DNA of 64,000 nucleotides from assembly GCA_963930775.1 (NCBI GenBank), contig OZ005698.1, positions 1,178,001-1,242,000 on the forward strand, written 5' to 3'. This document shows, piece after piece, positions 4,448 to 20,941 of the stretch; positions within the stretch are counted from its first letter, which is position 1; each line of letters opens with the position of its first letter. A program made the translations under genes and the position numbers. Below the pieces are notes generated by a model, which searched no databases, had not been told where the DNA came from, and saw only the letters and a list, made by a program, of their open reading frames with translations. The DNA comes from Cliona cf. orientalis. Lineage: Eukaryota > Porifera > Demospongiae > Clionaida > Clionaidae.

Positions 4448-5259
4448 TAAATAATACAGAAAGACTCGGGGCATACATTCATCGATTTTTTTTCTGTCCA
4501 CATCACTACTATCATGTCACTTGTTTTGTATTTTTGTCCTTTTTTTTTTTGTACATGCCAGGGAAGTTCATGCCTTGTGGTATAATATTATTATTATAAT
4601 AATATGTTTTTGTTAAATATTTGTGCGTGTCTGTTCATAATTATATCCATACAGTGTGTAAACGAGTATTATGTTCAGGATTGAAGTATTTTTTCAGCAA
4701 TTTTTTTAAAGCAAACAATTTTTGTCAAACATCCATTCTTCACAGCCTGAAATAATTAATGTCAGGTGTTTTGTACATGTGTGTCTTAAGTAATGACAGT
4801 GTATTTTCAGTGTTCAAAATTATAACCATTATAATATATAATAATTGTGTTTCTGAGTAACTGAATGTTGAGTGTAGCACATGTGCAAGTGATTTCGATC
4901 AAGCATGTAGAATATGCAGCATGCTACAGCTATTACCAAGGGCTTATATTATCGAGCCACCATAGGCAGCTTGCTATTCGCTTTGTCATCTTTACTTTAA
5001 AGCATTTGACGATTACGTAACATTGCATAACTTAAGTGTACTATTTATATACATAGTGACCCTTTACCATATACAATGAAGCTACTAGAGCACGTGGCAA
5101 TCGTTTCATAATCAAGCATTAACTATGCAATAATTATGCATGTGAGGGAAATGCAGACCCTGACTGTGTCAATACCATAGTAGATAGGTAAAGATCGTCT
5201 TAAATACTTATTGACCGCTGAAGAGACGGTGTGTCATCAGTGACATTGTCAACCATGCG
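4448..5259. other. KSR 3' flank, no further gene seen
   Basis: AT-rich sequence downstream of the KSR stop. It should contain the KSR 3' UTR, but no canonical AATAAA was found close to the stop. The minus strand was read for the missing syntaxin membrane-anchor exon and no hydrophobic open stretch behind a splice acceptor was found. Confidence 0.5.
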
Positions 5260-5880
5260 TGCCTGCAGCATGACCTGCTATGACTTCCATTCATCCCATC
5301 TTATAATAACAAACTTTAATATTGCACACATCATGAGACTACGAAAAGATACAACTAAACTATCTACGTAGCTACATGTATTACATATTACTGATTAAAT
5401 CAGTAAATCATATATAGCGATCGTAACAATAATATTATAGGTATGGATTACCAAGGGCTTATAAGCCCTATATATAAGTCCTTGGTTATACTTAATCTTT
5501 GGACACAAGTCTATACAGATGTGACTACCGCTGGACATTGCGCTGTGCCAGAGGCCAGGGGTGTGGTTTGTCCTTCAAATTCTTCACTTAATCTGCATAA
5601 TATGCGTTCTTTCACTTTATGCAGCTCTTCATTTATTGAGAGTAGCCTCTTTTGAATCTCCAACATCACTGACTTTTGATCCACCTGATCAGCTGGAGTA
5701 AAGTTATTGTGTTCCTAGCCTTGTATACATGTACAGTAACCAGGCCCTTTATATAGTAGCTAGATACTAGTCTATAAGTAAAGACAGCAAAATGCAGGAT
5801 TTCATTTGGACGGGGCCTAAACTTTCCTTTCCAGTTTCCCCCGAGAATTACGGAACTACATGTATTTTTGTGCTAGTACC
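5260..5880. repeat. Direct segmental duplicate, copy A
   Basis: Non-coding flanks of the orphan exon resemble those of the TRPA terminal exon. A stretch with atgacttc, attcat and catcttata recurs at both left ends. A stretch with taaactttcc, gtttccccc and attacgga recurs at 5818-5852 and 9018-9066. The copies have the same orientation and diverge by many substitutions and small indels. Confidence 0.75.
5511..5699 (-). pseudogene. Duplicated terminal exon of the TRPA gene (orphan copy)
   Basis: The minus strand reads 62 residues then TAG, beginning TPADQ and containing MLEIQKRLLSINEELHKVKE. It aligns throughout with the real TRPA terminal exon at 8736-8948 (TPADQ, MLEISKIQEMLLSMNEGLHE, VVTS against IVTP near the stop). 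The frame is open but 24 bp shorter. The acceptor of the real exon (tgcag) is replaced by acttt, so splicing at the ancestral site is impossible; a cryptic AG lies seven bases further in. Flanking DNA is duplicated too (about 5260-5880 against 8575-9100). No other TRPA exon lies nearby. It is most likely a relic of a segmental duplication. Fusion to the syntaxin gene was tested: the last syntaxin exon ends in phase 0, which does not fit. Confidence 0.8.
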
Positions 5881-5964
5881 AAAATGGGAAATCCGGGGGA
5901 GGGGGGCAACCCCATATTGGAAAGGAGGGTAAATCGATCCCAAGAGAGAGCAAATGCACCCCCC

Positions 5965-5982
5965 ACCCCCCCCCCCCCCCCC
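5965..5982 (+). repeat. Poly-C run
   Basis: An 18-base run of C just downstream (in minus-strand sense) of the last recognised syntaxin exon. Such runs often mark sequencing or assembly uncertainty, which matters because the next syntaxin exon is missing. Confidence 0.8.
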
Positions 5983-6017
5983 CGAAAAACCTTGATTATA
6001 ATAAATTTCCCACTTAC

Positions 6018-8443
6018 TCTTCTGTTGCTGCAGCTATATTCAGCCACTCTGTGAATGTTCTGTTGGCCAACTTCCATGTGGGCAGCTACCAACTCAATAT
6101 TGTACTCATGATCAATCAGGTCAATCATCTCTCCCTGCTCTTCTATCAGGGCCATGTCATAGAATATATCATTGAGTTCCTATGTGTGTGCGTATGTAAG
6201 AGAGAGAGAGAGAGAGACAGACTGGCTTCAACATTTCTTCAGACCCCTCCATCCTTAGTCCTACCATGATTTTTTCTTCCACAAGGAAGATTTCTACATG
6301 CCTGGCCTCAATCTCCCCAAGAGCCTGTCTCTTCTGAGCAGTAGCTATCTATCAAAATCTGGAAAAAAAAATTACAGCCATCTTGAAAATGTACTAGCTG
6401 CGTTATAGTTGTTCTTTTATGAAGGATAAGGAAGTGATAATATCTTGTCACATGACATTGAGAGCTTAGCTACACTACCCATGCTTTGTAGGTTTTCCAC
6501 AATCACGTTTATGCTTTCATCATCATCCTAATTACTTACATCTTTAGAAAACACAGCTGGGTTGTCCGACTCCAGTATTTCCTCAACTTCATCCTCTGTA
6601 ACTCTCTTCCCAGCTGGAGTGAAGAGGAGGGAGAGAGGGAGAGAGGGAGGGAGAGAGAGAGATGAGGGAAAGAGAGAGAGATGAGGGAAAGAGAGAGAGA
6701 GCCTGAGACATACATTAAATGAGGTACTACTGACTGTATTTGATCTGTTTTGTGATTCTGTCCCTGCACTTCTCTCTGTACTCCTCCTGTATTGTGTTGT
6801 AGTTCACCATCACTTCCATGAACTTTCGAGAAAGCATAGAATACTACAACAGAGCAAACAAATCATTGTAGGTAATTAACATCAGCAATGCTGGTAATGT
6901 TGTTAGAGAGGTAGAGGTAGTATTGGTAATACTACCTTATAGATGAAACTAGAAATAGATAAGCATAATATGATGATATGTGGTTTTTTTTTTATCATCT
7001 GCTCTGGTATCGAAAGAGCCCAGGCTCTCCCCACTAGCTAGCTACAGGCCTGCATGACACTAATTGTTATAAAGTATGCACGTACTTGAGTTTTCTTGAT
7101 CCGAAAGTCGGCCATGTTCCTTTCAGGCCCCTCTTGTTCCGCCTCTATCTGTTGTTTTAGTTCTGGCAAATTGGAATAAAAGTTAAATTGTCTCCCTTTT
7201 TCTCCCTCCCTCCCTCCCTCCCTCCCTGCCTTCCTCTCTTTCCCCCTCTCTCCTTCTCTCCCTGAGCCTCTCTCTTGCTCCTCCCTTCCTCACTAATCAG
7301 TCCATCATGGATTCGGTGTGATGTCTTCTTGACCTCGTCCATGAGTGTCTCTGTCTCGTCCTTTGTCGCCTGGTTTTGGAATGAGGCCAGGATCACGTTG
7401 TGATTGTGCTTAATCTGGTCCACATGAACCGAGATCTGGTTCACCATCTTCGTCAACTCATCAATCTATAGACACACACATACACAAATGCATACACATT
7501 ATTTATCGTCACATTAACTTCAAATAGTTACGATCACATAGCCTCTTCCAAGGACTATTCCTCAAAACTAGGAATGGACCTATAGGCTTGTCCCCATCCC
7601 TATTCTGTGTATGGTATAATAATTTTTATTATACTATGATACATGTATTACATGGTATATGCATGTGGCATACATACACATACGTATACCGTAGTGAAGA
7701 ATCCAATCATGAAGCCCCCCTCTCCTTCCAGGGCCTGGAGCGAAGACTCAGTTGGTACAAAATCATCCTCATACTTGCCTTGTTGCTGCAGAACGTGTGA
7801 AACAACGGTGACAGATACATAAACTTTAATATTCTTAGATTAGTATATACCCTGATCAAAAATGATATCCTGCAATACTAAGCTAGACCACACGCTTTTA
7901 TATTCCCAGTAGCAATTTAACTTTTCGGTTACAAGGTAATCACGGTGTAACCTATTGGGGCATATAGCGTATAGTGTTTTCGTAGACATGCACTAACAAT
8001 TATGAATATCTCAGTCTGTTGCTGTCAAGAGCAGGAAATTTAATAGTGTGTACATTTATTCTCAAAAAAATTGTGATATGAGCAAGCTAGCTATAGTAAT
8101 TCCCAAATTTTGGTACCATCTGACATTGTAAATGTTAGCGCACGCCTTGATTTCGCGACAATGCGGTACATTTCCTGCGATTTGTATGCGAAACTGTACA
8201 GTCTTAACATGGGCGTGGCCTGGGGACGAGGCTACTATAGTGCGTATAGCTACAAAAGTTTGCGTTTTGGGCCAATCTGCAGACATTAGGCCGAGTACCC
8301 GCAAAATAGTCACCGCGTCGCCGCCCTTTCACGACCACAAAGGTAGCTAGAGAATGGTGCGGCGCCGCGAGACTAGTTTCCTATAATATTCTACTTACGA
8401 CATGCTTTAGCTGCTCAAGTCTGTCCTTCATATCAAACGCCAT
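6018..8443 (-). CDS. STX: Syntaxin (Qa-SNARE), last exon not found
   Basis: Minus-strand exons 8399-8443, 7690-7785, 7294-7465, 7086-7162, 6735-6843, 6540-6613, 6265-6348 and 6018-6179 join in frame to 273 codons without a stop. The start is ATG at 8443 (MAFDMKDRLEQLKHV). The Habc domain is clear (IDELTKMVNQI, ILASFQNQATKDE, MADFRIKKTQ, LSRKFMEVMVNYN), followed by a linker ending ILESDNPAVF. The SNARE motif carries the zero-layer Gln in EEQGEMID. Syntaxins of the STX1-4 type sit in the plasma membrane and pair with SNAP-25-like proteins and VAMP. Relative to the family the motif has lost one residue before the zero layer and gained two (Asp-His) after it. The exon ends at the basic residues SNRR with donor gtaagt, where a transmembrane exon should follow; none was recognised before KSR. 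It could be a soluble form or a decaying paralogue. Confidence 0.9.
7786..8398 (-). other. Syntaxin intron 1
   Basis: This 613 bp intron separates the 15-codon first exon from the second. The part near the first exon (about 8140-8370) is unusually rich in CpG for this window and may hold promoter or enhancer elements. No other coding sequence was recognised. Confidence 0.4.
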
Positions 8444-8574
8444 GATCGCTTCCTCGATTCCTTTAACAACCAGCCTTCACCCCGGAGTCACTTCTCTCTA
8501 GTCACGATCGAGTATCACGAACATGCCAGGCTCAAGTTAATCATGGGACGCACACCCTAACTTAACTTGTATGT

Positions 8575-9100
8575 ACAAGGCCACCATGACTTCAATTCAT
8601 ATCATCTTATAGCAAGTATCAGAAAAGAGACGTTAAAATATTTGGGGTTTAAACTGTGTGAGTAACTATAGCTAATACGTATTAATCTGGCTAATGTCAT
8701 CTATAATTATTATAGGTGTGTCTTTGGTCACAGAACTATGTAGGTGTGACTATCATAGGACGCCGTCCCGGGCCAGGGGCACTGGGGGCCGGCGGTATGG
8801 TCGACTGGACTTGCTCTTTAACTTTCTCTTCACTCAGTTCGCGTACACGTTCCTTCACCTCATGTAGGCCTTCATTCATTGAGAGTAGCATCTCCTGAAT
8901 CTTGGATATCTCCAACATCAAATTTTGAGTCATCTGATCAGCTGGAGTCTGCATGGAATAGGTGGTAAGCTTTTAATGTGGTGGTGCTAGTACTAGTAGT
9001 CAAAAATACAGGGTTTGGGATAAACTTTCCCATCCGGTTTCCCCCTTGAGAATAATATTACGGACTTTGTAATGTAGCTATTAAATTTTGTGTTTGTGCT
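8575..9100. repeat. Direct segmental duplicate, copy B (contains the TRPA terminal exon)
   Basis: The partner of 5260-5880 in the same orientation. It includes the functional-looking terminal exon 8736-8948 with an intact acceptor, part of the preceding intron and the 3' flank. Confidence 0.75.
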
Positions 9101-12100
9101 ATCTCTCCTGGATTCTCACTAAGCTATGAAAAGCTGAAAGGGATAACTATTCAATCAGAAAGGGTGGACAGGCCATACCTATAATTATGCATGATAGCTA
9201 GCCATACCTTTGTAGGATTGAGCTCCATAGAAAGGTGTTCCGCGGAACTGTAGTTTTCACCAACCAAGAATTTTGGCACAAAGAAGTAGAATGACAGCCT
9301 GTTTGGGTGTATTGTGAGCTCTCTCTGCTCATACAGATTTTGACAATTTCCAAGAAATCTCCGAGAGCCCACTGGCAGCTTGAATATTAACTTTTGCATT
9401 CCGTGAAAGAGCATTGAGCCATCCAGAGCTAGAATCAGATCCACCTACAGTAAAATTTATTATAGCGGGTAAGTGAAAGTATACATGCATGCACGAGAAT
9501 AAATTAGGTTTTCTGGCCCTTACCCTCATTTCAAGCCTTTTCAAGGTAGCTGCCTCCTGGATACCTTTTATGTCATCCACTGCCAAACCAACCTGTGAGA
9601 ATCGTACATGTAGCATGTCAATTTTGCACTTGTCACAATGCAAAAAAAATTATACTAGCAATAACAGTTCAGCTTTCATAACTATCCCAGTACATGCTCA
9701 TGATCAGGCACAACCATACCCATGATATTCCATATTCAAGTGCCAGGTACCAGTATTCAGTCTATTCTCTTATAATTAGGCCCTTTAAGTTAGCGGAAGC
9801 ATATCTAGCTCCCCTATAAAGACTGGATGTGAAAGCACAAAAGTTGAATCTCTAGGAAGACACTAAAGTCTAAGTATGCATGCCAGCGTGGTGTTGTAGT
9901 ATCCATATCTTACCAGCAAGTTGGTGAAGAGGATGGGCATGAGAATAAGAAAGATCACCCAAAGTATGTACGAGACTTCTGGAAATGGTATTGGTGGAAT
10001 GTCATCGTCTGACCCCCCAGAAGCCTGGTGAAAAATGTCTTCATATCCCATCTCTCCTGTGGTCATGGTCATGATTTTCCAAGTGGACTGGAGCATGTTG
10101 TTGAAAGGTGATCGCTCAAAGAATGAGTGAAAGTGGTTGAAGGTCATATGGAATGCAAGGGCGAACATCACAACAAGTACAATTGTCAAGATCACTGCCC
10201 GAACGAATGTCTTGAATATGCTTTGAAACATGAGAACATAGAGACCAGTGTCTACATGGGGAACACATACATGACATTGTATTGATCAGAATCTTTCTGA
10301 CATTACATGTAGCACTATTAATAATATTTCTCAAATGTATGCTCCCGTGAAAGTTTTCTCCACAAAAACTATACAATTGATTTAGCACTCTGCCAAAGTT
10401 TTATCCATGAAATGCTCACTTCCTACTGATCTGCAAAGCTTTCTCCCTCCAATTTTTCTCTCTATACAGTATTAGCCAACTTACCCAAGAGTCGTAGTTT
10501 GCGCATGTACAGCACGACGTCAGCCCATGACAGGAACACTGCTACAATTCCCACCTGCCACTCCCACTCATGGGGACACAGACACTTGTTGCCATGGACA
10601 CCAGAGATGAAGATAAGAGTGCTAATTATAAGGGGAATCTTCACCAAGGTGGCAAGGTCAATGTCATCAATGTACTCTCCGATATGGTGATAATTGAAAC
10701 GATGTAAAAGTCGGCATTTCCAGATTTTTCGAAATACTCGAATGAGGCAGAAAGCAATAAGAGTCCATGATGCACCCACAAGAAATTTGCTTTGTACTGT
10801 AAAAAGTATATTATGTTATTTAATTTATACTATTATGAAGGAGTGCTGTTATCAGCCAATTGATGAAGGTTACCTGGACACTCTATATGTGATCCACACA
10901 ATATTTCACTGATATCTACTGCCAGTGTAGTATCATTGCAAACGTCTCCTTGACTGAAAATGCCATCTGCATTGAGGGTGATGTTTTGATCGATCAGAAA
11001 GTTCATAACTGCTTCACGAGTGGACGATGAAAGCTGAGAAATATTTACAGCACCATCATGATGTGGGCTGAAGTTGCCTGTATAAAACATAATATTAAAG
11101 CACTGTCGTAATTTATACAGCCAAGTGGCATATAAACTAGCCTTGTTCCCAGGCCCTCCCAGCTTTTCAATAAGAGAGGGTGGGGACAAGGCTATAGCTA
11201 CTACTATAAGCATACATACATGCTGGTGACAAAGGATTGGGTAGCTGAAGAGCAAATGTTGTGAGAAGGACAGCAAACAGCAGGTAGCAAACCAGTGAAA
11301 TGTAAAAGAAAAGCATAACCATCTCATTTTTCCATTTATGGTCGATGAGGCTGTAGATGAGGGGATGTTTCAATAGCTCAGTGCGTTTACTCTCAACCTA
11401 AGGGTTATTTTGGGTGTTATAATAATTATTATTATGCATTAGACAAATATTAAATTTTTATACCATGATTCTTAGAGGGTGTTTCATTTTTTGTCTTTTC
11501 TGACGATGACGAAAGAAATGTACCACTTTATAACTCTTCCCCTCGACAGGCTGTGAGCTCTTCTCATCAACTGATTCTATCTTATTCTGAGCTTTCCACC
11601 TGCAAAATTTAATATATACTCTAACTCTAGGTCATTGTATTCTCATGCAGGTATAATAATATTATGGAGATTTGCGGGCCAGTAGGTTGAGGGACTGAAG
11701 CAGAGTTGAAAGTTATTATTGAGCACAACACCCTTAGCTATAGCTAGCACTGTTGTCAGAGTTTTGGTTACCGACTGGATCAAACTCTTATATAGTCCCT
11801 CAACCTACCTGCAAGGTATTATACTACATAATAATATGTATAGTGCATTGTGGGAAGCAACAGATCAAGAATTCTCAATCTACAAATACTCAAACTGCCC
11901 TATCATTTTACACATTTAAACAGTTGTTATAATCCAAACTTATCATAAATAATTTATGTTATTAATATAATATTATTTACCTTACTAGTTATTTGTATGG
12001 TGTCATGCCAGTATTAGCTTTAGCTATTCATGTAGCTACACCACTGATGTATATTTTTCAAGCATCAGAAAATATTATAGACAAAAAAAAAAAAAAAAAA

Positions 12101-15100
12101 GAAGCCTATATATACACTGTACCTATTAAATTTTGGTGGCATAATTAAACCAAGAAGCCTCTCAAAAAATCAATAATGTCTTTACTTGTCTGGTATGCAA
12201 GAAGTTTAAATTACATGTACTTGTATATATGTGACCTGCTATGACAAAAGGGACCACTCATGTTAGGATGACAATTTTTATCATGACAATGTCCAACTTT
12301 CTTTCTACAAATGTAGCAGTGAGTATATTGAAATTAACATACAGCGGATACACCTACAGAATATATACATTATACTCTATGCATACTAGTACAAGCTACA
12401 TAAAACAAACACGAATTATGTCCCAAATGGTCCCTTTTCTCACAGTTGGTCACATATTATTGTAGTACTATACTCTGTGCACTCACTTGTATATTACGTA
12501 TGCTACGAACATGCATCTAAGAAATTTTCTAAACTTACTCTTTGGCATCTTCAGAGTCTTCAATAAATTCATAGCTGAAGGTCACAGCATAATCCTTGCT
12601 ATCTGGACTGGTACCTTCCGATCCATCTTTAGCGTTAGTACTTGTACACTTCTTCAGTACTAACTGAGCCACATCTTCAGATAAAAAATGTATTACATTG
12701 TTATGAATTGAAATTTGGTATAACTCTGTATAGCTACCTGGCATCCTCTGAATCAGTTTTCTGAAAGGTGTTGTTTCTCTCCCATCTTGTGTTTTTGTAC
12801 AGTTCCTCAGGGCTAGCTTCCACTTGGGACTAGAGATAATAGCTTCTGCTACATCTCTACATTAAAGAAAAATCAGTGGCAACCAAGTAATACGATTCTT
12901 TTTCAAAGTTGATGTCGTACCTATGACCTTTCTCAATCGCCCAATCCAAAGCGTTAAAGCTGCGCTGATCCCTCAAGCCAAGATTGGCACCATGCTTGAT
13001 GAGTGTCTCCACGGCAGTCACATGACCTTCTTTGGCAGCCAGGTGAAGGGGTGTGGTCTTCAATTTGTCAGTGGGGTCGATCTCGGCTTTTGCTGACACC
13101 AGCTCCTTGACGATTCTGGCATGCCCATTTGCCGCAGCACAATCTAGTGGAGTCCACAATACTTTATTTCTGTATAAGGGATATACACTCGAGTCATAAA
13201 TGCGAAGTTTATACTGTGGGATCCCTCTATTATCAATGCCATTGGGACAGCTTAATTAAAGGAAGTACCCTCATTAATTTCAGGGATGGCTAGTTTTGTA
13301 CATACATGTAGCTAGGATCTAGTATCATGGACGTGTTTAAGGTTACAACAGTATCTTACTGTAATATAAGGGCATGCCTGCATGCTTGTTATAACTGATG
13401 CTCACCTTGCTCCAATATTAGCCCCTGGCATCTTAATCAAATTTTTGGCAACATCTAGGAAGCCGTGTTTGCAGGCAAGATGGAGAGGTGTGTTGCCATC
13501 ATCATCGACACTTTTCAAGAGATGACCGACATCAGTTGCTTCATGCTGTTTTGTATCTCTCACACTATCCTTCCAGTAGTGCTGGAGCTCAGTCATAATG
13601 CTAAGATTTTATGGTCAAGATAGTCATAATTATCGTATAGCGGGAATTTTCAAGGGGTTCAATTTTTGCTGGTAGTGGGTTTTATTAACATTTACTGATG
13701 TATGTGATCGTGCTCTCTATGCAGTGGCATCTCTAGGTAGTTTTTAACCGGCTACAAGCAATCAAAGGTGACTGCACAGGAGTGGGTGCTTGCCTGGGAC
13801 ACTACGGTATATTATTACTAGTTTGCTTAATTCACGGGTTTTGGTTAGTTATTATGAAGACTGTGAAATTGGACTCCTTGAAATTTTCCGGTACAGTAGT
13901 AGGTATAATATTGTTGTTGTCACTTACTGGTTATGTCCATTTTCGGCAGCAAGGTGCATGGCAGTCTTAAGCAATGCATTCTTTTTCTGCAGCTTAAGGT
14001 CTAGCTTGGCTCGAAGATTCCAAAGCTCTTTCACACACTCAAGATGACCATTCTGTGCAGCAATGTGGAGGCAGGTATTGAAACTAGTGTCGACTGTTTC
14101 GTACAGCTTGCGTCCTTCATCACTTCTCTTGGAGAGTATGAGCTACACATCCAATGCAAAATGCATAGTTGAAATTAGAATTCAAATTTTTGATGGCATA
14201 TGATTTTGCACACCTCTATTATCTTTGGGTGATTGTGCTCTGCAGCCAGAAAAAGAGCAGTTTTTCTGCCCTTGGTTTTGACAGCAACAGCAGGGTTTTC
14301 TGATGTCTTTACAAGCATAGCTCCCTTCTCCAGCAGAAGCTCAAAGCCTTCTACTTGCCCATACTCAGCAGCTGTCAGAAGAGGAGTGTAAGAATGAGCG
14401 TCCTCCACTTCTTTGTCAGCACCCCTGCAAATTTAGAGGAGTAAAATACGTAGCTACAGATCTTTACAGCATTTGGATGTGCACTATATATATATATGTA
14501 CACATACTTCTTTAGAAGGAGTTCCATCATATCAGTTTTTCCGTATTCAGTTGCATAGTGGAGGGGCGTTTGGTCGTAAGTGTCCTTTACATCCACCACT
14601 TTGCGTTCTTTTTCGAGAAACTCTTCCATGACGTTGACACAGCCATATTGGGCAGCAATGTGAATTGGCGTGACCCCGTCACTTATTCGGGGTGTGAGAA
14701 ACTCGTCTAAGCTACTACTTTCCTTCATAAGCAGTCAAACTGTGGGGATGCTATCATTTCGACAAGCATAATGGAGTGGAGTTGCTTTGTCGTTATCACA
14801 CTCATTCAACAAGCCTGGGTGGGCGTCTAGTAGCAATTTGACTATCCTGTAGTGATCCTCGCGACAAGCAATGTGGAAAGGCGTCAGGCCAGCCTTATTC
14901 TTGATATTTACTTTAGTCACATCTGATTTTCCATCTGTCTTCATTTTCTCCAGCAGAACCTTAACAACTTGCTTGTGACCGTGGAAGCAGGCTTCATGGA
15001 GAGGTGTGTCGCCATTTCCATCCTTCACGATCAGATCGATATCCTTGTGGTCTAGAAGTGACTCCACTGCTTCTTTATTGCCCGACTGGCAGGCTATGTG

Positions 15101-18100
15101 AAGAGCTGTAAAGCCATATCGGTCTTTGGCATTTACCTGCAAGTGTATAATTAGTATTTCATCACATGATATTGTTAATGTAGCTATACATACGTCAATC
15201 TCTGTGCACTCAGTGACAAGAAGGTCAAAGATTTGTTTGCAAGATGTTTGTCGCTCATAAGTGGCTGGAACTGAACTGCTTTGATGGTATTTACGCTTAG
15301 GAAGCTCCAGAGTACCAGTATCACTCTGCGTCCTCTCATATCTTCTTTCGGTGTGTTCAGCTGAGTCAGTTTGATCAAAAACATCAGGTTGTACAGTAAT
15401 CTCTGTAGACTTGCAAGGCTTGCAGGCATGGCGGAGGTAGCAGGCTGCGAGATGAAGTGGGGTGTACTCCTCCGAAACAGTCTTGGCCCTAACATCTAGA
15501 AATGGGAATATCCAGTGCAATGTAATTTAATTGGGGAATAATGACTTGATATGGTATCATACCTGCACCACTGTCTACTAATATTCGCATTATTTCTGGT
15601 CGGTTGAACTTGGCAGCATAGTGAACTGGAGCATAGCCATGGCTATCTTTCATTTTCACCTGTTGATCCTTATTCTTACTTTGCTCCAACAATCCTCTAA
15701 CCCCATCTTGTTCATCTTCCCATATATGCTGTATGTATGATGATACATGTAAAGAATGCCTTGTAGCTATACTATATACATGTATATACCGTCACCTCTA
15801 GTCTATAAATGAATTGTATATTATGTAATGTCCAGGCCTGGCCCATCCCTGTGCATTGAGTCAGAACACTCATACAGGAATAAAGTGCTTTTAGCTCAAT
15901 TACTATAGCTACAGGGCTAGGGTGCAGGGTGGAATTGCCAGGCCTATAGTGATCCCAAAGGGAAACTCCATGATGCACAAGGCCTATACTTAGGGGACTA
16001 ATTATAGTCTATACATCCTTAAAATTCCATTCACTTGATTATGTGTGCATGGAGCTAGTAAACAGGATGGATTTTCTACTTGAAACCACAATCAATATTA
16101 TTATTATGAACTCATAGCCTGGATATTATAATATATATAGCTAGTGTGTAGGTGGGCTGCAGGTCAATATAATCTCGTGACTATAGAGCTAATTTAACCC
16201 ATGATGCAGGTAAATGTTTCACTGTTGCTGTTTATAGGCACCTAATTGATATTGGTGACCTACTGTACCATGCCTCGCTCAAGTCCATGGCATTATCTGC
16301 TCTACAGCCTGAGCTAGCAACACTGGACATAATATTATGTGATACTATATTATACAGAGATTCTCCAAGAATTTGAAATAGCCATTAAATTTAATTTAGT
16401 TAAGAAGCCTACAAATGATATTAATTGAGAAGCCTTGTTCGTCTACAATATACTGCTAATAGCTATAGTGTAGTGGCTATTATATTATAGCTAAGAAATA
16501 GTCGGGGATTTTTTGGCCCTGCATGGATGTAGGAAGTGCACATCCTTTTCCTCCTTATCATTATAATTATATATTATATCTAAGACCAGGATACAAATTT
16601 TGATATGAAATTTTTGTGATAATATTATTGTTTAGCCCTATTATACATGCAGCATGCACTGTCTAGAATCTAGGTGACTCTTGTAAATTGTGTGTAACTA
16701 TTATTACCGGTATATCACTGATGACACAATTTTTATGTAAGATCCATAAAAATAATATGAAAGACAACAGTTGCATTTGGTAGAATCAGCAGCTATAAGG
16801 GGGGCTTGTCCAAAGTCCTTGTGGAAAAATTAACATCATAATGACGTTATAGGGGAGCAGGGGGTCTTGGTCCATGATGTTTTACAGCACAGACTTTAGC
16901 TGTGATTATGCATTCTTGTGGTTGAACAAGACTAGACATGCCTCCAGCAGTGCATTTTAGTGACAGCTGTATCAAGCACTATCATAGGCGTCAGTTGGAT
17001 ATCATAAGTGGGGGGTCACAGAGTTCCATCTGACAGATGGACATAAAAAAAATACCTTTGGGAAATTATAAATACCCAGACTAAAATCATGCACTTAATA
17101 TAAATAATTACCCATACTTTTGGGAAATTGTAAATAATTACGTACCCAGAATCTGATATCTATTTTGGTACATTCAGAACATTGATTAAAAAGCATTTAT
17201 ACACTCAGATCTTGTGATATTTAATATGCTTTCGGTTCTGAACATGGCTATTTGTACACATGAATCTCGTAATAATTATTATTACCACGATACATATCAT
17301 TTTTGTAGTAAAGAGCAATAATTATTACTGAAGCAAAGTGAGGGGGCACAGCTCAGGCCCCCCCAAAATGACGCCTATGAGCACTATGTAGCTAAAGGTG
17401 TACACGTAGCTATAGCTACAGGCAATTGCAAGTAAGAAACTGTCAAAGAAGCACAGGTATGCAATGAATCCATGAACTTCAAGACACTGTAGAATACAAG
17501 TGAATATCGAATGTGTCGGTTAGCTAAATGGAGCAGAATCAGAGTTTCAGTGTTGAATCTATGCTGAAATGCTGTGACGTTAAGAGAGCAGAAGGGGGGG
17601 GGGGGGAGTAAATGTTAACGTCATAATTTTTCCACAAGGACTTTGGACAAGCCCCCTAATAATGATCCTACTTGCATTATCCAATTTGCTTTGTACACTT
17701 GAAATGAATGTAGCTAATAGTGAGCTCAAGTATAGCACGAATACAGAGCAGATTATGTACATTTATACTCCATACAAACAACTAGCTACATGCATATACT
17801 ACAAACAAAATGGTCACATTATCAATAATGTTAGCTATACAGCTGATGATATGCCATGAAAGCAAACGTTTGTGGCGTGACCACACCCTCCACACGCACT
17901 TACCCAGTAAATGTCTCGATCTCGATTGGCCCTCTCTGCTGCACCATCCCAGTTGGTACGATCGCGAGATGATTCATCCTTCTTCTGCACGTGGCCCGCT
18001 AAATTGCCACGCGGCTCCTCAGAGTCGGTCTTAGCCTCTTCCACATCGATGCGAACGTCGGCGACTGCACCCCCCGACGGAGCTTCGTCGGAGTCGCGAC

Positions 18101-18134
18101 GCACTAGTTCGATGCTATCGCCTGTAGCTTCCAT
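8736..18134 (-). CDS. TRPA1: TRPA-type ankyrin-repeat cation channel, 18 exons, with an in-frame TGA
   Basis: Exons: 17904-18134, 15563-15728, 15194-15495, 14508-15136, 14214-14424, 13928-14142, 13406-13600, 12921-13169, 12738-12856, 12539-12674, 11464-11599, 11220-11397, 10874-11077, 10485-10796, 9914-10251, 9524-9592, 9208-9444, 8736-8948. All phases fit, giving 1380 codons. Order: acidic N-terminus (1-77), a long ankyrin array (about 80-780; many TPLH..A..G repeats) with a disordered insert near codons 150-210, S1 near 890, a Cys-rich S1-S2 loop, S2-S5, pore GEMGYEDIF near 1160, S6 near 1190-1212, TRP-like helix VGLAVDDIKGIQEA, and a C-terminal coiled coil. TRPA channels are Ca-permeable sensors of irritants or heat; the pore and post-S6 helix match TRPA best. 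Codon 367 is TGA (14735-14737), so the gene is a nonsense allele, is read through, or contains a base error. If decoded as a stop, only part of the ankyrin domain would be made. Confidence 0.92.
9208..10251 (-). other. TRPA pore, S6 and post-S6 helix exons
   Basis: The exon 9914-10251 encodes S5, the pore with GEMGYEDIF, and S6. The exon 9524-9592 encodes exactly 23 residues (VGLAVDDIKGIQEA then ATLKRLEMR). This matches the TRPA post-S6 helix, where human TRPA1 has GLAVGDIAEVQ. The exon 9208-9444 continues into the cytoplasmic tail. These stretches are the strongest evidence for the TRPA assignment. Confidence 0.9.
11682..11808. mobile_element. MITE-like element with 15-bp inverted repeats
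   Basis: gtaggttgagggact at 11682-11696 is perfectly inverted at 11794-11808. Total length is 127 bp. There is no coding capacity and no clear target-site duplication. Confidence 0.5.
12227..12457. mobile_element. MITE-like element with about 30-bp inverted repeats
   Basis: The left arm 12227-12256 contains atatgtgacc and aaaagggacca. The right arm 12428-12457 reads the same inverted with a few mismatches. The total is 231 bp, AT-rich inside, within a TRPA intron. A TA dinucleotide flanks the left end, consistent with but not proof of a Tc1/mariner origin. Confidence 0.55.
14735..14737 (-). other. In-frame TGA inside TRPA ankyrin exon 4
   Basis: Exon 4 (14508-15136) reads NDSIPTV, TGA, then LLMKESSSLDE in one unbroken frame, and ankyrin repeats continue on both sides. 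The position corresponds to the variable residue before LL in helix 2 of an ankyrin repeat. A CGA-to-TGA transition would explain it. Confidence 0.85.
16799..17656. mobile_element. Non-autonomous DNA element with TAA target duplication, interrupted
   Basis: The left end runs GGGGGGCTTGTCC and continues about 34 bp into GTCCTTGTGGAAAAATTA. The right end is the inverted complement (one G fewer). TAA lies directly outside both ends (16796-16798 and 17657-17659). A TAA duplication with G-rich ends resembles PIF/Harbinger MITEs. Removing the nested insert leaves about 450 bp with no transposase. Confidence 0.7.
16983..17379. mobile_element. Nested hAT-like MITE with perfect 8-bp target duplication
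   Basis: The 397-bp element starts CATAGGCGTCA and ends with the exact inverse TGACGCCTATG. AGCACTAT is duplicated at 16975-16982 and 17380-17387. An 8-bp duplication is typical of hAT (and P-type) transposition. It lies inside the element 16799-17656, so it inserted later. Confidence 0.8.
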
Positions 18135-18200
18135 AACTTGTTCATAAGGGCGAAAGAGGTTTTTTGCTAGCTGGTATTACCGTAATTCTCAATGATTTTT

Positions 18201-18206
18201 TTTATT
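18201..18206 (-). terminator. Poly(A) signal of the 18295-20941 gene
   Basis: TTTATT on the plus strand gives AATAAA on the minus strand, about 90 bp after the stop at 18295 and only about 70 bp before the TRPA start codon. The two genes are packed head-to-tail. Confidence 0.5.
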
Positions 18207-18231
18207 AATATTGCTTAGCGGAAGTGGTTTT

Positions 18232-18251
18232 GTTACCGCGCATGCGCGTGA
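18232..18251. promoter_or_regulatory. GCGCATGCGCG palindrome upstream of TRPA
   Basis: A GCGCATGCGC palindrome, the NRF-1 type core, lies about 100 bp upstream of the TRPA start at 18134. It is in the 160-bp gap to the next gene, so it is a plausible promoter element. Assignment is by motif only. Confidence 0.4.
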
Positions 18252-18294
18252 TTGAGACTACAAAAAAAATTGAGGGTGTGGCTCTGACCCGATA

Positions 18295-20941
18295 CTATTC
18301 TGCATACAATTCAGGCAATTCAGAACCGTCATCCAACACACTATTGCTGCTATTTGTTCTGAGGAGGTCAATTAACTTTTTCTTTGTTCCCCTCAGACAC
18401 ACTTTCACAGGCTGGTGTGTCTTCTTGTATGCTCTTAACACCACGTTCGAGTTCTGCTCCACCTTCTTCTTGCTGCCGCTCAGATTTCCAAGAATATTTC
18501 TTTGCAGTTGCACTTTTCTTCTTTGACGTGATCTCAACATACACCTGCTTGAGTCACTGACCTGGTGATGGATATTAGTATCAGGACTGTTGGAGCTATT
18601 CCCTCTTAATGTTACTCTGTAGCCAGTGTTCATTCCTTCCGCCTCTCGGCTCTTTTCTGTGATGGCATGAGATAAGTTAACAATTCTTCCATGCTGTTTA
18701 GAAGAGGACAAGAATCTCCCAGTGACTGTGTGTGAATTGAAAAGAATTTGGTAACCCCTTTGAGAATCAATCTGAGAGTTATGTAAAAGGTGAATACCTT
18801 TTCTGTGTCCACTCCTTCGTAGGTGGGGGTATGCCACAGTGTGCCTTTCCACAGAGCTTAGTGCTCTGTCTGACTCGTTTGCACCACTGCGGGATTTATG
18901 AGGTGATGCAAGGAGGGAGCTGTTAATCACCGTTGGGCAATTGACAACAAGCTCATTAGCACACTCCTGAGAGTTTTGTCTGTCTTCAAGGATTCCTCCC
19001 CTGTCCTTAAGTATTCTTCGCGAATTATTGCAGCAGTGTGTACTGCTCGATGATGAGACGGTTACATCGGAACTGTTGTCTTGATGATATTGAATGAGAG
19101 CTGATGAAGATGATGAAGGATGAATCTGCAGATCGCACAAGTTTGACTGTGCTATCGATTTCGATGGAATCGAGCGAGTGGTATCGTGCTTTTCAATGTG
19201 ATAAAACCTCCTCCTTCCCCTTTTTCTGCCATTATGTCTGGATACATACTGTGCATACGTAGCATTATCATCTTCACTAGCTAACTGTTTCCCAATTGTC
19301 AGTTGCTGAAGATCTTCTTCTGTGACTTGCTGTGTACCAGATTTTATTCGCCCTGAGAGCAGTCTTCCAAAGTTCAGGTGATGACTCTCAGTGGAAGAGT
19401 GTTCCACAAGATTCCCGCGATGATCCTCATGTTTTCTTGCATTCTTGTCTATAGTTTTCCCTTCAGAATCTGCTGTGGACAGTGGTTCTAAATAGTGCAC
19501 ACGCCTTTCCTTCTTAGCCACAGACTGCTGCTGTTGCTCGGGTGCTGTCATGCTGAAGAATTCAATCCTAGTGTGGACCTTTCCGTCTTTACTTCTTGAG
19601 CTTTTCACCATAATCTGGTCTTCTTGTTTCTCGTGAAAGAGCAAAGAGGGTGGGTATTTGGATTTCTTTAAGTGATTTGTGTGCAATTGAAGTGGCTGGA
19701 AAGTAGCATTTGATTGTTGCGTGTCCTTTGATCTGGATTGATACCCAGTGGAATAATTTTGTGTTCTAGCACTTGAGCTTCTACTCCGGTATATGGCATT
19801 TTCAGGTACCCATGCTGTGAATTCTGCTGGTTGTTCACTCACGGTCATCCGTGCAAGTGACCCAATGCTATTACGTGGTCCTTTGGAGCATTTTTTAGTC
19901 AATAACTCTGCTTCGGAAAATACTACTGGTGCAGCTCTGCCAATCACTTGTGGTCTGACTGGACCGGTGTCTACTAGCACTGATACACTTTGCAATTGAC
20001 TCCCTCTTAAATTTGGACTACAATCGCCATTACTGCTATGAGGAACCAGAGGCACTCGATGAAATTTGGATATCTTATTCCGTACAGTTGTAAGCTTTTC
20101 GTTACTATCCAGTCTGCAGTGAAATATGATAACATTTGGTCAATCAATCAGCAATAATAAACAAATTAACCAAAGAGCCAGCTAGGAATTGAAGTACTGG
20201 TATAATAAAATATTCTCTTGGTGTTAAGTGGGAGTTGTATAATAGTAGTTGAGTGTAACATGGGTTACCATAGTTGCTACAAGTGTTATGCCATTACTCT
20301 TAAGTATTAAACGGTGATAATTAAACATCACACCTTCACTTAGTTAGCTCTCATTAGGAAATGTATCATAACAGTAATATTATACTGTAGCTAAACTTTA
20401 TTAATTTTGTTGCTCACCTGTTTACTCCATCTTCAACATCTGGGAAACTCACATCTTGAAAGCTCCCTTTAACTTGCATTAGTCGAGTGCACGTGGTGGG
20501 TGGGCCTGCTTTATAATTCCTTGGTGTTTTCTCCACTAATAGCCCAAGTTTCATTTCCCTATAGTGTATTATGTGGTCACTAGCGTTCCCAAGGTGACAA
20601 AACCTCAAACACTCTTCCTCCGCCTTCCGATCAGCTTTCCTGCGAAAAATGGCGATTCTTTGCGTGGGCTTTATACTTGTGACGTTGCTGGCCTTCTGCG
20701 ACGATCCGCTGTCCACATTCGCGCCTGTGCTCTTGCTGCAATCGGCGCCGAGATAGGTGTTCTTCACTGCGTGGATGCGACCTGGAGGTATTGCTGCGTT
20801 TGCGCATTTCGCCCACCCACCGAACTCCACGCTGGTATCGTGGTGGATGCACAGACAGGCAGCCTTGGCCCGCGATTCCTTGAGTAGCTTTCGGCTATAA
20901 TTTGGTGTCACCATGATCCCTCTCCAGCACTCTCTGCGCAT
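18295..20941 (-). CDS. Unrecognised 780-residue serine-rich basic protein, 2 exons
   Basis: Exons 20418-20941 and 20113-18295 join in phase (donor ag|gtgagc, acceptor ctgcag|a) to 780 residues and a stop. A second in-frame ATG lies at 20914 (MVTPNYSRKLLKES) and could be the true start. I do not recognise the family. The protein is low in hydrophobic stretches, has no signal peptide or membrane segment, and is rich in Ser, Arg, Lys and Gln with short runs such as SSSSS and QQQQ and a basic patch RKRGRRRF. This suggests an intrinsically disordered, possibly nuclear protein. The uninterrupted 1.8-kb second exon in AT-rich DNA supports a real gene. It is transcribed divergently from INO80B over a 137-bp promoter. 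Confidence 0.7.

Follow-up and report, generated by a model that had tools for sequence, protein, structure and literature searches.

An in-frame TGA codon in a TRPA-like channel gene of Cliona cf. orientalis, probably a recent nonsense allele

A TRPA-like channel gene of the demosponge Cliona cf. orientalis is interrupted by a TGA at codon 367 (14735..14737, minus strand; TCA on the plus strand), and the rest of its coding structure is open. Most likely this TGA marks a nonsense allele that arose recently in one TRPA-like gene, presumptively null and probably segregating.

Structure of the TRPA-like gene

The gene occupies 8736..18134 on the minus strand of the window (i.e. the whole stretch of 64,000 nt that was analysed). 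Its exons were rebuilt from splice boundaries: the coding sequence starts with an ATG at 18134, passes through 18 exons and closes with a TAG whose last base is 8736, and all 17 introns are GT-AG with the reading frame kept across each of them. The spliced coding length is 4140 bases, or 1380 codons with the terminal TAG counted, and the frame contains only two stops, at codons 367 and 1380. This independent reconstruction agrees with a sequence-only reading of the region, which had given 18 exons in frame, 1380 codons and a TGA at codon 367.

The predicted product combines ankyrin repeats with an ion channel domain. Pfam Ank_2 scores 139 bits upstream of the TGA and 197 bits downstream, in the same frame, so the claim that clean repeats flank the stop also stands. 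The Ion_trans domain, downstream of the TGA, scores 52.7 bits (cut-off 25). Compared with PDB sequences, the channel part (a query of 492 residues, matched over residues 221–427) gave 11 matches: nine TRPA1 sequences rank first (lowest E 2.5e-21), followed by two TRPV4 at 2.8e-4 and 4e-4. Exon 4 alone is matched better by ankyrin-1 and other ankyrin proteins than by TRPA1; repeat sequence behaves in this way and exon 4 therefore does not discriminate for TRPA membership. With its long N-terminal array of ankyrin repeats and a channel domain nearest to TRPA1, the gene is a predicted channel gene of TRPA-like type. Exon 15 (9914..10251, minus strand), assigned to the pore region by the reconstruction and the structure match, lies 3' of the TGA and is open.

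The in-frame TGA and its possible origin

The TGA lies in exon 4 (14508..15136, minus strand; 629 nt, entered in phase 0 and left in phase 2), which encodes ankyrin repeats. Within this exon it is flanked by TPLHYACRNDSIPTV on one side and LLMKESSSLDEF on the other, and is followed by CTG CTT ATG. To either side of it the coding structure is open, and one and the same frame carries the repeats across the site, while the remaining two minus-strand frames of the exon contain many stops. Fourteen introns lie 3' of the TGA.

The remark that a single CGA-to-TGA transition would suffice to create the stop needs qualification. CGA is indeed one base away, as are seven other sense codons, eight in all. 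It is favoured as the former codon, though only indirectly, because the window is poor in CpG and rich in TpG and CpA (observed/expected 0.48, 1.21 and 1.24 respectively). None of the 11 full-length paralogues of exon 4 has Arg at this site, and the former codon therefore cannot be stated.

Paralogues of exon 4

The 11 full-length paralogous exons found in the genome have identical splice boundaries and are 44–53% identical to exon 4; a twelfth copy (L015) is partial and stops short of the TGA site. No stop codon occurs within any of the 11. The residue aligned to the TGA is E in eight, K in two and S in one, encoded by GAG (6), GAA (2), AAA, AAG and AGT; one of these exons (L011) has inserted residues nearby. 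Shortly after the TGA, the residues LDEF (14699–14710) align to a gap in 11/11 full-length paralogues.

The nearest paralogue is 52–53% identical to the TGA-bearing gene. The latter is therefore an old, separate member of the family and not a fresh spare copy, which rules out a recent redundant duplicate.

Six of the exon 4 copies (L005–L010) lie within about 257 kb on contig C11 (2356060–2612757), five of them on the same strand, and L005 and L006 have identical protein over exon 4. This arrangement suggests a recent tandem array.

Stops in other family members were surveyed with the two domain models. Among those of the 213 ankyrin matches that were listed, one other contains a stop, a single in-frame TAA (C5:2592565–2592972). 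In the Ion_trans control 19 of 54 matches contain stops (TGA only in 5 of the 19), a rate that is unusable as such since matches can cross introns. Four of the 19, all in other TRPA-like genes, were inspected: their stops (three TAA and one TAG) all fall outside the exon, either 5' of its acceptor or 3' of its donor.

Residue constraint and age of the stop

Exon 4 of the TGA-bearing gene keeps 49 of the 51 residues that are invariant in seven compared rows. When each of seven paralogue rows was left out in turn, the corresponding values ranged from 49/49 to 49/54; this test left out L006, L008, L009 and L010, which are near-copies of L005, and the partial L015. Downstream of the TGA the count was summed by hand over exons 5–10 and 12, which are matched in all seven of the paralogue genes used (7 of 11). 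There, 103 of 105 family-invariant residues are kept, compared with 103/104 to 103/118 in the seven paralogue genes. The matched exons of these seven contain no stop. Exons 2–3 (21/21) were given no weight, exons 13–17 were set aside as matched in 1 to 5 paralogues, and exons 1, 11 and 18 have no paralogue match and stand outside the comparison. Within the set-aside group, exon 14 keeps 13 of 19 invariant residues, below the five paralogues available there (13/13 to 13/17), which may hint weakly at looser constraint.

Besides the TGA no second disabling change (stop, frameshift or broken splice site) was found in the gene. We modelled decay with assumed rates, i.e. a transition bias of 2, a fivefold CpG rate and indels at 5–15% of substitutions. 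At these rates each unit of neutral divergence should bring 387–697 disablements. The lack of a second disablement therefore bounds neutral divergence, at 0.43–0.78% (95%) or 0.10–0.18% (50%), and speaks against prolonged decay under the assumed rates. An old pseudogene is ruled out by the intact structure and the kept residues. Thus, given the absence of decay and the kept residues, the stop is either young or carried by a single allele of a gene that is still under selection as a whole.

Assembly quality and haplotypes

The available part of the genome report (PMC12639293) gives, for the primary haplotype of odCliOrie1.1 (GCA_963930775.1), 217.17 Mb in 307 scaffolds, a QV of 58.0 and about 90x HiFi coverage. 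The copy of the assembly that we searched comprises 216,785,154 bases in 149 contigs, small scaffolds being seemingly absent. An assembly or base-calling error at the TGA is very improbable. A QV of 58.0 corresponds to about 1.6e-6 errors per base and, with 3.9% of substitutions creating a stop, a spurious stop anywhere in the gene is expected in about 3 of 10,000 cases (4137 bases x 1.6e-6 x 0.039). Most errors in HiFi reads are indels in homopolymers, whereas an error at the TGA would need to be a substitution.

According to the same partial source, curation, including the removal of 81 haplotypic duplications, reduced the assembly length by 32.33%, and k-mer completeness of the primary assembly is 60.5% (PMC12639293). 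Both values fit divergent haplotypes, although symbiont k-mers may add to the latter, and we count the length reduction in favour of a nonsense allele. The alternate haplotype is deposited separately (GCA_963930685.1), as is RNA-seq from the same specimen (PMC12639293). In the searched assembly one copy of exon 4 was found and no second haplotype copy; the exon has just one other match there, covering 120 bases of a paralogue at 74%. A search of a bacterial and archaeal genome collection, where a sponge gene is not expected, found no copy of the site, whether C or T was taken as the codon's first base.

Splicing, readthrough and recoding of the TGA

The sequence-only reading went too far in holding the TGA to be beyond removal by any intron. 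The stop could be avoided either by removing 14911–14723 as an intron in part of the transcripts or by skipping exons 4 and 5, in both cases yielding a shorter but complete channel. The hypothetical intron (14723..14911, minus strand; 189 nt, i.e. 63 codons or about two ankyrin repeats) is the best in-frame GT-AG pair that leaves usable exon pieces. It scores 9.3 (donor 6.4, acceptor 2.9) with a matrix built from 17 introns only; the pair 14911–14510 scores higher (12.2) but leaves a 2-nt exon. In leave-one-out scoring, the weakest three among the 17 real introns stay below 9.3 (4.3, 4.7 and 5.4), and three real acceptors (-0.1, 0.4 and 2.1) fall below the candidate acceptor. Bases spanned by an equally good in-frame pair amount to 11.7% across the 14 exons scanned and to 30% of exon 4. 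Exon 5 (14214..14424, minus strand) measures 211 nt by the reconstruction; exons 4 and 5 together make 840 nt, so that their joint skipping preserves the frame. Against this, the candidate acceptor is weaker than every real one (3.9 to 12.5) when scored with the full 17-intron matrix, which contains the real ones. Moreover, the donor and the acceptor of 14911–14723 are both absent from the homologous positions of all 11 full-length paralogues, and the repeats that splicing would drop are retained in each of them. We therefore regard avoidance of the TGA by splicing as unlikely. Introns inside coding exons are known as exitrons, and the candidate resembles them in that its length is a multiple of three, it runs from GT to AG within a coding exon, and it contains the stop. 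It differs from them by its weak acceptor and by sites that are unshared with paralogues, and it is known here from genomic sequence alone.

Translational readthrough giving full-length channel at a useful level is very improbable. Of the stop codons UGA leaks most, and a C in the position right behind it favours the binding of near-cognate tRNA, as stated in the available text of PMC12233894. The codon after the TGA is, as had been reported, CTG and not CTA, whereas high readthrough in humans has the consensus UGA CUA (PMC4359377, in the part available). The same part of that source gives 0.61–2.29% for three UGA CUA contexts in HeLa cells against 0.27% for one UGA CUU context; the context UGA CUG is absent from the text of PMC12233894 and PMC4359377. 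The 118 nt from the TGA onward fold no better than shuffled sequence (z +0.49; 134 of 200 shuffles fold at least as well). Neither the UGA CUA motif nor a downstream stem-loop, either of which would mark programmed readthrough, is thus present, and none of the 11 paralogues in the same genome has a stop at the site. The TGA is like the functional UGA readthrough of LDHB and AQP4, as these are described in the accessible part of PMC4359377, in having CU after UGA and an open frame behind it; it is unlike them in having CTG instead of CTA, in lying in the middle of the protein and in showing no sign of conservation among paralogues. Context and folding thus give readthrough no support. Insertion of selenocysteine at this codon, or its conversion to UGG by A-to-I editing, has next to no probability. 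TRPA1 channels sense reactive chemicals via cysteines, and a selenocysteine would be striking in this respect. The paralogues, however, have E, K or S at the site and never Cys or Trp, and local RNA structure at the TGA is nothing unusual. A scan of the window with Rfam models at gathering scores gave no match of any kind, and the 15 matches that 5000–18300 gave at E values of up to 10 include none to the SECIS model. A genome-wide SECIS search also gave no match, as did its controls, and is hence uninformative. A selenoprotein would be expected to have a SECIS in its 3' UTR and Cys in homologues at the UGA; neither was found, and selenocysteine is rejected because the Rfam model detected no SECIS near the gene and the residue pattern is wrong. 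The options listed in the sequence-only reading thus form the right set, within which base error and readthrough (QV 58.0, no UGA CUA, no unusual downstream fold) are weaker than a nonsense allele.

A probable recent nonsense allele

Several features expected of a recent nonsense allele are found together here: an in-frame stop in an otherwise open spliced gene, a sense codon in the related copies, and constraint downstream of the stop with no further decay, exon 14 being a weak exception. The TGA would have arisen recently by nonsense mutation in one member of the TRPA-like family, the most probable route being that an arginine codon lost the cytosine of its CpG. Translation would end after 366 residues, within the ankyrin array and ahead of the channel domain. 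An mRNA whose stop is followed by introns is expected to undergo nonsense-mediated decay, and this would apply here because of the 14 introns 3' of the TGA. Given the truncation and the expected decay, we regard the allele carried by this haplotype as a presumptive null. Most likely it segregates and entered the primary-haplotype assembly by chance; next in line comes a loss that became fixed very recently.

There is a small chance that the TGA is instead retained on purpose, forcing alternative transcripts (without 14911–14723 or without exons 4 and 5) or leaky readthrough. If so, the channel would be made solely with a shortened ankyrin array or at trace level, and one TRPA member would have an altered sensing range.

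As a nonsense allele, the TGA belongs to an ordinary class of biology, since segregating loss-of-function alleles in otherwise intact genes form a general class. It shares with them a single stop, intact remaining coding and splice features and no long decay; unlike that class, it is known from one assembly alone. TRPA channels have diversified in demosponges, as described for Ephydatia muelleri in the available part of PMC7385117. The Cliona genome is similar in having many TRPA-like copies and differs from that account in that one of them carries an interrupting stop. The allele adds one modest observation on loss-of-function variation in an expanded family of sensory channels in an animal without neurons; among the matches listed in a literature search, judged by title or abstract opening, none deals with such variation in sponges. 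The main consequence concerns annotation, where automated gene finders may break up or truncate the TRPA-like gene or place a spurious intron across the TGA.

Other features of the window

A tRNA scan of the window found none. Intron 1 contains, at 16800–17656, a perfect inverted repeat of 33 nt with 791 nt between its arms, which resembles a small non-autonomous DNA transposon. On the 3' side of the channel gene, an open frame on the minus strand (7295–7465) has a weak match to Pfam Syntaxin (E 0.0025; 18.1 bits, with a curated cut-off of 26.7) and looks like part of a putative SNARE gene of syntaxin type.
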